Source: Symbiodinium sp. CCMP2592 (taxonomy: Eukaryota; Sar; Dinophyceae; Suessiales; Symbiodiniaceae). From it: DNA of 64,000 nucleotides. A program made the position numbers and the translations under genes. A model generated the notes under the pieces. That model was not told the origin of the DNA. It did no database searches and saw only the letters and a list, made by a program, of their open reading frames with translations. This document shows, in pieces, positions 42,201-45,200 of the stretch (positions within the stretch are counted from its first letter, which is position 1; the number at the start of each line of letters is the position of its first letter). Location of the stretch: contig CAJNDT010002779.1 of assembly GCA_905221615.1 (NCBI GenBank), positions 186,001 to 250,000 of the forward strand. The letters are read 5' to 3'.

Positions 42201-45200
42201 ATATCAGATTTCCGGCCTACCCTCTACGAGTCAAAAGGGGCGGTATGGTAAAGGGCATGGCACTGCAGTAGTGTCACCAAACCTGTTGTTGTAGTTAGTT
42301 CCGGCTTTGCGTCGAGTCAGTGCTGTGTCATGAGGGTTTAGGGTTTAGGCAGGGTTTGAGGCTTTAGGCTTAGGAGGACTTGAAAAACTGCGGCTCGAGC
42401 GGAGGACGCCGACCCCAATCCATAAACGCTAATTACTTAGAGGGGACTTTCCCACGTGCAGCCTGTTCTGAACGCGTAATCCTTGCTGGTACATTTCTGA
42501 TAGGATTAAAAGATTCGTCCATGGGCTTTTCAGAAGGGCGCAAGCCCCGTTTCGGGTTTAGGCCTGGCATTTGTCTTTCCCTGTTAAATGGGGGTTTCCG
42601 AAAATAGGGGACCCTAATATAGTACACTAAATAGTAGGATCCTAATTATAAGGACCCCCCAAATAAGGTACCCCTAATTTTCGGAAAGCCCCAAATGCTG
42701 AAGATTGACTGCAGTTGTGCGGAGTGGAGGAGTTGAGTCTTTACCCAGAGGCCCCAAAGTAGTTCTTTTTTGGGAGTATCCTATAGGATTCTATATTCTA
42801 TATATGAACCCCAAAAAGAAACTACTTTGGGGCCTCTGGGTAGAGCCTGTGATTCGGAACGTTTTCAACTCCTCTTGTGTGTGTTAAATAGTGTGACTTT
42901 GACTTTCAAGGATTCTGACTTGGCCTTCCTCCACTACCAGGAGCGGAAGCTGCGCCAGGTCGGCTCCCCCATTTAGGGCTCCACTAAGGGTTCTAGATTA
43001 GGTTCAGGGTTTAGGGTTTACGGGTCTGGAAAAGGGTTCCTTAGCAGATTCCTTCAGAGGTTTAGGGCTTACCGCCCCTGACGCACCGGAGTGAAGGTTG
43101 GGGACGGTTGAGGGATGTTTCGCGTTTACATTGGAGTTTTTGAAAATCTGCCAAGTTTGTTTCTTAGGGCTTTTTTTCGAAAGTTTACACTATAGACTGT
43201 CCAAGAACATTACTCAATATTCTATATGTTCAGCGCCGTGAGTTGGGTTTAGAGTTTAGAATCCTACATCCACAGGTCATTACCTGCAGACAAAGGCCCC
43301 CACAGTGTTCGAAGCTTCGGGGTTTGGAGCGCTGGGATACGGGTCTCGTTTAGGCCGAGGTTTAGGGTTTAGGCTCTTATAGCCTTTTTTGCAGAATGTA
43401 GATCCCCTAAACCCTAAACCCTAAACCCTAAACCCTAAACCGTAGATCCCTGGTTCCTAAATCAGCTGTCTTGGTCGGGCCTCAGCCTGACGGCATGCCA
43501 CTCGTTTTGTTGATGGCGTCCTTTACTTCGGGCTGCTCGTCGTTTCCGGCTCCTTTTCCAGCATCGCTTGACACGGCTGGCTTAGTGGTAGCGTACGTAG
43601 CCTTTAGGCTTCTTGGTGGTACAAGAATTCCTACAAAACTAGCTTTTTACGAAGCCCTACAGTAAACCCCCAAGCCCTACGTAAACCCATACAGGTTACT
43701 GCGGTGTTGGGCAAGGAAGCGATTTCAGGTTTCGTAGCGTAGACCCTCAACCCTAAGCCCTGAACCCTAAACCCTAAACTTACCCTAAGCCTCACACCCT
43801 AAACCTTAAGCCCTGATCCCTGAAGGTTCGGTCGCGGCTGAGGTTTACGAACTGGCTCCTACTTAAGGGCTCATGGGACTTAGTAAGTAAGGTTATAATA
43901 AGTAGGTTATAACTAGGATAACCCCACTTAGGGGACTTATAACCCTATTTATAACCTACTTACTAAGTCCCATGATCCTTCAAGTAGGGCTGATAGTCCC
44001 ATTTCAAATGGTCCTAGGTGTTGTTATGGGGCATAGGGTAGACTTCCCCACATCACACCAGTACTTCCCATTGCCGAAACCCTTCACTCCATTATGTAGG
44101 TACTTCGGACCCTTTGGGAGTGAGGTTCAGATAAATTCTAGGTTCCAAAGTAGTGCCCTGTTACCCGTTTTTTAGTAAAACGGAGTGCCAGCAGAAAGGG
44201 ACACTGGGGAATCTAATTAAGTAGACCGCCTGATCAAAGCCCTTATATTAGGGACCCAAAAAGCACATAAGCATAAGCATTTTAAAGGGATATCCCTACC
44301 TTAATGGGCTTCATTATAAGGGGGTTTATATGGGATATCACTATCCTAATTTTTGCTTATGTGCTTTTTTGGGGCCCTATTATAGGAATTCAGAATTGAA
44401 CTTGCAAAGTCTGAGGTCCCAGCCTTAGGGCCCTGAAAGAAAGTGACTACAGGCGTCGGGTGACTTCTTGAAAGCCCCAACAGATATGCGAGTTTCCGAA
44501 ATTGAGGGGTACCTTATTTTGGAGTCCTTATAGTAAGGATCCTACTATTTAGGGTACTATAGTAGGGTCCCCTATTTTCGGAAACTCCCATATGGTTCAG
44601 GGTTTGTGGTTTGTAGCTTAGGGCCCAGGGGTCCCTTATGTAACCACCCTGTAGAACCCTGTAAAGAACCTTTTAAAGGACACTTGTTTCAATTACCCTA
44701 AACCCTAAACCCTAAACCCCTAAACCCTAAAGATCCCTTTAAGGAACCCTATAGATCCCTTTAAGGAACCCTAGCAAAAATTTAATGTGTTGGTGCCAAG
44801 ATGCTGGCCTCCGCAAGCCAGGCTCCGTACTCGTCGCAAGACTGGTCGAACTCCTACTTCATGCCAGGTAGGGCTTAGGGTTTAGGGTTTAGGGTTTAGG
44901 GTTTAGGGGCTTACTTAGGGATTCGGGACTACTCTAAACCCTAAACCCTACTTCAGGACAGGAAGGGCTTGCCCATAGGCCCCATGGTAGTTCCTTTCTG
45001 GGATTGCCTTATAGGATTCTACGAACCCCCAAAAGGAACTCCTACTTCATGCCAGGTAGGGCTTACTATAGGGAATGGGGACTCCGGGCTCGGCATTTGG
45101 GATTCGGATTGAGGGTTTAAGGATTCGGGATTCGGGTTTCGGGATTCGTGGTTAGGGTTTCGGGATTCGACTGGGGATCATGGATTTGGGCTTTAGAGAA

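Follow-up and report, generated by a model that had tools for sequence, protein, structure and literature searches.

The stretch of DNA analysed here (the window) comprises 64,000 nucleotides of Symbiodinium sp. CCMP2592 (contig CAJNDT010002779.1, positions 186,001 to 250,000), and within it the end of one coding exon is found three times, with telomeric DNA and part of a foldback, a small mobile element, between the copies. The question raised by this locus is whether an insertion has here given birth to an intron, as the initial annotation proposed, or has befallen an intron which was already there. The structure looks like the scar of a DNA-break repair that lengthened an intron, rather than a new intron of the gene. 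We consider it probable that DNA was inserted at a staggered break, and that filling in of the overhang duplicated the border of a pre-existing intron.

Based upon a protein-homologue search with a stitched model, exons in the window code for a PAO-type Rieske oxygenase, and judged by this homology the gene product is a PAO-type Rieske protein. The search gave 891 proteins at E <= 0.01 out of 1555 candidates, of which 120 were listed; one partial match among those listed bears the name Effrenium voratum. The first exons were found by eye from motifs which we take to be conserved in PAO. The model is partial: 27 exons were placed by hand, two more, near 12.1 kb and 37.05 kb, are missing, and neither the end of E17 nor the start of E19 is certain. 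Among the 26 exons having a donor, GC occurs 16 times, GT 7 times and GA 3 times. Such GC and GA donors, the TTTAGGG-type repeats and the Effrenium voratum match point to a dinoflagellate source. The best match, P0001 (EukProt entry s137_g9.t1), aligns exon by exon with the model and appears to be a gene model of the same gene; it differs by three substitutions where exons align, and also has one additional residue and an insertion of eight; we ascribe these extra residues to GA donors that were presumably missed. A three-exon query detected no second copy of the gene without the insert in the assembly, since of the six candidates scored the three that matched were all this locus. A PaO family search of the genome gave zero matches (the exons are short), and regular-expression searches for Rieske and other motifs gave nothing useful. 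Positions 59945–63998 differ from the remainder of the window in that they are richer in G+C and hold long open frames which overlap, a single frame reaching as many as 723 residues.

The initial annotation placed the copies at the end of PAO exon 18. They do mark the edge of a PAO exon; the number has to be given up, this being E21 in our partial model, where the count hinges on the missing exons. E21 (44822–44867; this and all other features are given on the plus strand) encodes APYSSQDWSNSYFMP and supplies the first base of the following G. It is succeeded by a GT-AG intron of 1072 bases (44868–45939) and by E22 (GESDRSISAWRAWLAK; 45940–45986), which has its acceptor AG at 45938–45939. The E21|E22 junction, FMPG|ESDRSISAW, is crossed by 120/120 of the homologues listed, P0001 included, and 117 of them are gap-free nearby. 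The donor of E22 (region 45940–46631) is probably GA, AAG|GACACT. The eight residues DTSGSGPR which P0001 carries after E22 are missing in P0002, P0003 and P0018; a likely cause is an annotation error in which a GA donor was missed.

We number the copies by position: copy 1 is the leftmost, copy 2 the diverged one and copy 3 the exact repeat of copy 1, and the second and third are within the intron. Copies 1 (44848–44877) and 3 (45036–45065) both read GAACTCCTACTTCATGCCAGGTAGGGCTTA, that is, 30 identical bases at an offset of 188, and the match breaks off at the very next base both to the left and to the right, which confirms what had been annotated. The diverged copy is equally real: CCTACTTCAGGACAGGAAGGGCTT, at 44947–44970, agrees at 21 of 24 positions and scores above all controls. 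The block common to the three copies amounts to ~22–25 bases. Copy 1 consists of the last 20 bases of the exon and the first 10 of the intron (GTAGGGCTTA), with the donor inside, and the start of E22 (GTGAAAGCGA) is absent from the block. In copy 3 the AG (45054–45055) is followed by GT, and 874 intron bases separate this copy from the start of E22. Writing the 25-base border as U = CCTACTTCATGCCAG|GTAGGGCTTA, the local layout is U-telomeric-U'-F-U. Copy 3 has 0/25 changes and copy 2 has 3/24 (Fisher p 0.11); counting one more base gives 4/25 for copy 2.

Repeats of low word diversity, copies that overlap and pairs falling within telomeric words were filtered out of the listings; with low-complexity and telomere-rich repeats removed, the 30-base pair is the longest exact direct repeat within 600 bases, the next being 18. 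In a mismatch-tolerant search with telomeric words masked the focal pair scores 27 and is among the four best (41, 29, 27 and 27), the top pair being one of 50 bases at 41219/41281 (spacing 62, score 41). Measured against the edge of E21 its two intronic copies score 30 and 15, while E21 never exceeds 10 against 22 foreign neighbourhoods and the top control for any exon is 12.

The DNA between the copies is as the initial annotation had it, with TTTAGGG/CCCTAAA units separating copy 1 from copy 2 and a family F foldback separating copy 2 from copy 3. The former interval (44878–44946) consists of 69 bases of telomeric sequence, TTTAGGG units and then CCCTAAA units, with gaps of 0 and 0 to the copies on either side; the masked island, 44875–44950, includes a few bases of each. 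This insert is not terminal, lying at ~230.9 kb of a contig of 2.02 Mb. Where telomerase has extended a target end, that end should be in register with the repeat; the left junction of the focal insert, CTTA|GGGTTTAGGG, fits this, and the junctions of other islands, by eye, do not do so consistently.

Copy 2 is bordered on its right by family F, a dispersed foldback for which at least 49 matches were listed in a search of the organism's own genome (40 of 1969 candidates scored), most of them to the family F part. The hallmark of the family is a pair of complementary arms with CCC...GGG ends and TA flanks. By eye, five relatives (L002, L003, L005, L007 and L008) are flanked on either side by TA, without any longer repeat being noticed around them; in the L006 copy the right arm is cut. 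The focal element (44972–45040, or up to 45043 if it is the GGAACTCCT variant, as in L008) keeps its left end, reads TG in place of TA, and has its right arm cut after GGAACT; by sequence similarity it is a truncated member of the family. Copy 3 begins with the same GAACT that stands at the cut, which gives a microhomology of 5 bases, extended to 8 with the L008 variant. The flanks of the family F copies L002 (contig C5190) and L004 (contig C1213) match in opposite orientation, and these two contigs thus share this stretch, either as haplotypes or through a duplicated contig end.

That an insertion with target duplication took place over an AG|GT site is supported by this layout; that the insertion itself made the intron, which was the original proposal, is not, and we find it scarcely credible. 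Long identical direct repeats spanning CCAG|GTAGGG are what suggested it, the AG at 45055 outscores all other 71 AGs of the intron, and the introners of Symbiodinium microadriaticum can obtain a splice site from the duplicated target (PMC9860276, in part). Birth by insertion would nevertheless put bases of E22 into the duplicated block, and E22 would directly continue the right-hand copy; neither is seen. The block holds 10 intron bases instead, so that the exon-intron border is older than the insertion, the next coding exon begins only at 45940, far beyond copy 3, and the junction is present in every listed homologue. In an introner the insert and its duplication give both splice sites, and here the pair 44867/45055 would serve just for a nested step. 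Finally, in 25 introns (the E17/E19 pair being left out) the flanks of donor and acceptor, outside the AG|G core, are no more alike within introns than between them (114 matches vs 107.0, sd 8.0, p 0.21). A caution follows for similar cases: direct repeats over AG|GT near an intron are, alone, no proof of intron birth.

One part of the first idea could survive, namely that the duplicated site serves as a recursive step. The initial remark that copy 3 offers an AG in the same position of the codon stands: an acceptor matrix built from 25 hand-placed acceptors of the PAO gene, a small set from which that of E19 was omitted, gives the AG ending at 45055 the top score, 10.33, among the intron's 72 AGs, and the acceptor at 45939 ranks 2 (9.18). 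The AG of copy 2, ending at 44961, ranks 4 of 72; it was rejected as an acceptor, having in-frame stops and foldback sequence beyond it. An exon starting at 45056 would read GRAYYREWGLRARHLGFGLRV and then stop, and use of the donor at 45055 alone would retain 188 bases and give FMPGRA before a stop. Within the intron, CCAG|GTAGGG at 45055 places an acceptor directly against a donor, and the latter's score of 4.02 is middling among the donors of the gene. Removal of the 188-base insert in a first step would therefore leave a donor in place again, from which splicing to 45939 as the second step would produce the normal mRNA. The insert could go first in this manner with the same mRNA as result, and the protein evidence is compatible with one-step removal too. 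Recursive (ratchet) splicing uses AG|GT junctions inside long introns; copy 3 is likewise an acceptor followed by a donor, and is a candidate for such a site by its sequence alone.

Short interstitial telomeric islands are very dense in the material examined. Per kb, TTTAGGG and CCCTAAA together number 8.89 in the window and 2.99 in 25 other stretches, and telomeric words cover 11.6% vs 5.2%; by our own arithmetic, random sequence of equal base content would be expected to hold ~0.12 heptamers per kb. Islands were defined as at least 14 masked bases and were taken from 26 stretches amounting to 314 kb (the window, L009–L028 and L032–L036; L001–L008 and L029–L031 were omitted). Flanking direct repeats scoring at least 16 were present at 14/405 islands vs 1/2010 with swapped flanks, which is beyond chance. 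An earlier set, the window plus 20 stretches, had given 11/326 vs 0/1615 at the same threshold, and in the window alone 15/179 arrays reached at least 12 vs 0/512 swapped, with several rows coming from one locus. Four rows in both multi-stretch sets belong to one L013 tandem array, which leaves ten loci of the 14, three of them in the window; one of the ten, L020 3303/3409, encloses mainly foldback. Among the repeat-flanked islands are L034 8944/8990 (24 bases around 22), 9272/9403 of the window (26 bases), L013 5617/5724 (41) and L017 4159/4250 (20); L020 155/196, with 14 bases around 27, falls below the threshold of 16.

Two further arrangements were noticed in the same material. At 41686–41859 of the window an exact direct repeat of 29 bases surrounds a foldback with C-rich arms and telomeric pieces, and by eye this repeat extends to the left into telomeric sequence. 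L013 9089–9385 is a tandem array with a 65-base unit containing telomeric repeats.

Within the PAO gene copies of an exon edge occur in the adjoining intron at E8, E13 and E21, that is, at 3/27 exons with a score of at least 15 (top control 12). E13 mirrors the focal case, its acceptor region being duplicated around CCCTAAA-type DNA: an upstream copy of 28 bases (27684–27711), in which the acceptor AG reads CG, has 2 mismatches to 27783–27810, the two enclose 71 bases (27712–27782), and the downstream copy carries the acceptor used in the model and leads into exon E13 (27795–27863). At E8 an 18-base sequence near the exon end is copied, with 1 mismatch, upstream of the exon (20558–20575 / 20672–20689), and this position means that it is no simple insertion scar. 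A process specific to exons was considered for the three edges and dropped, because the control with telomeric islands revealed a general one.

Foldbacks were examined in the same way, and repeats scoring at least 16 flank 5/152 of them vs 0/748 controls, two of the five rows coming from one L032 array; with such a proportion, foldbacks as the chief carriers of long duplications were rejected. The same figures bear on an insertion of transposon type, in which a reverse transcriptase or transposase would have placed a foldback or telomere-tailed element and left a long target duplication. Directly downstream of the first PAO exon, at 12158–12297, a family F foldback (12180–12272) does lie between 22-base direct repeats (19/22), and repeat lengths are frequently 20–30. 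Set against this are the five family F loci flanked by TA, the L006 copy with its cut arm and the unrelated contents found between long repeats, and we hold a transposon-type origin to be improbable.

What we propose is the following sequence of events. With the intron present beforehand, a staggered break at the exon-intron border would have left overhangs of ~25–30 bases, and fill-in on both sides would have duplicated the border. Telomeric DNA, supplied either by telomerase acting on a 3' end or by capture of a fragment, would have been joined in between, and the truncated family F may have entered in the same or a later event. The intron would thereby have grown by 188 bases, and as its donor comes from the left U the protein is unchanged. 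In rice, patch-mediated break repair, reportedly described by Vaughn and Bennetzen in 2014, likewise duplicates the overhang of a break, and in Daphnia introns are said to be gained through repair of staggered breaks. The simplest history comprises two insertions, first telomeric and then family F, with the same border duplicated each time; one complex repair is possible.

Several observations favour such a break repair: the junction shared by all listed homologues and P0001, the intron bases in the block, the telomeric island with zero gaps, the cut at GAACT, the mirror case at E13 and the excess of repeat-flanked telomeric islands over swapped flanks. Against it, three copies require two rounds or a complex event, and the overhang has to be long, 25–30 bases here and up to 41 elsewhere. 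Furthermore 391/405 islands score below 16, and copies 1 and 2 themselves score just 9 in that test, a low value that is due to masking and divergence.

Alternatively, copy 3 might be a patch inside the foldback, with no target duplication at all. A break or stalled fork in an intact intronic family F element would have been primed through GAACT on the exon edge 188 bases off, and ~25 bases would have been copied. It would fit with this that the family F arm stops at the shared GAACT, that copy 3 and not copy 2 is identical to copy 1, and that the intronic copy upstream of E8 encloses no plain insert. Templated copying leaves unexplained the zero-gap contact of copies 1 and 2 with the telomeric island, and likewise the repeat-telomere-repeat cases at other loci; we think it rather unlikely. 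That the whole structure is an artefact of assembly is very improbable, for while repeat-rich regions are error-prone, the flanks of the three copies differ and like patterns occur at other loci. Should insertion with target duplication be the true explanation, the empty orthologous site would read CCAG|GTAGGGCTTACTATAGGG.

Should the pattern extend across the genome, this alga would carry a closely packed natural archive of staggered breaks that took up telomeric DNA, and would illustrate how genes put up with insertions at the edges of their exons. Where duplicating a border creates an AG|GT site, break repair, recursive splicing and intron gain would be tied into one testable structure. A bolder and doubtful extension is that entry of telomeric DNA into staggered breaks has been a main source of intron length in this genome, with a 20–40 base duplication rendering insertions at exon borders harmless; the duplicated AG|GT here would then make a 188-base GT...AG unit open to recursive removal, and the same event in an uninterrupted exon would make a new intron.

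The kind of event, a telomeric insertion at a double-strand break with target duplication, is already known from mammals, and this locus would be another case. For dinoflagellates, no report of interstitial telomeric DNA was found among titles and the openings of abstracts, nor in the parts covered of PMC9498494, PMC11508785, PMC11453091, PMC11114475 and PMC8045281. Target duplication alone is given for 6/130 rodent and 4/25 primate telomeric insertions (PMC2246262, in part), and in the horse for 3/66 loci, plus 2 with deletion, addition and duplication, with staggered breaks named as the likely cause (PMC7215372, in part). In mouse cells fill-in of 3' overhangs with CST and polymerase alpha-primase results in small tandem duplications (PMC8355091, in part). 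Taken together, these findings make a staggered break, addition or capture of telomeric DNA, fill-in and joining a plausible route. As with the mammalian interstitial telomeric sequences, we are dealing with short internal telomeric arrays, some with target duplication, added sequence or opposed telomeric stretches (PMC2246262, PMC7215372; both in part). The mammalian duplications were called against empty sites, whereas ours are called from the repeats alone; the islands here number 405 in 314 kb, and unlike the mammalian cases two of the duplicated targets include splice sites. The tandem duplications of mouse cells share with our proposal the doubling of a break overhang, the filler here being telomeric DNA and a foldback fragment (PMC8355091, in part). 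The introners of S. microadriaticum have target duplications of 4 bp, and a splice site can come from the duplicated DNA (PMC9860276, in part). Like the introners of Symbiodinium and other dinoflagellates, the focal gene has received an insertion with target duplication; introners make the intron, whereas at the end of E21 the intron is the older and the duplication extends over 25–30 bases (PMC9860276, PMC11453091; both in part).
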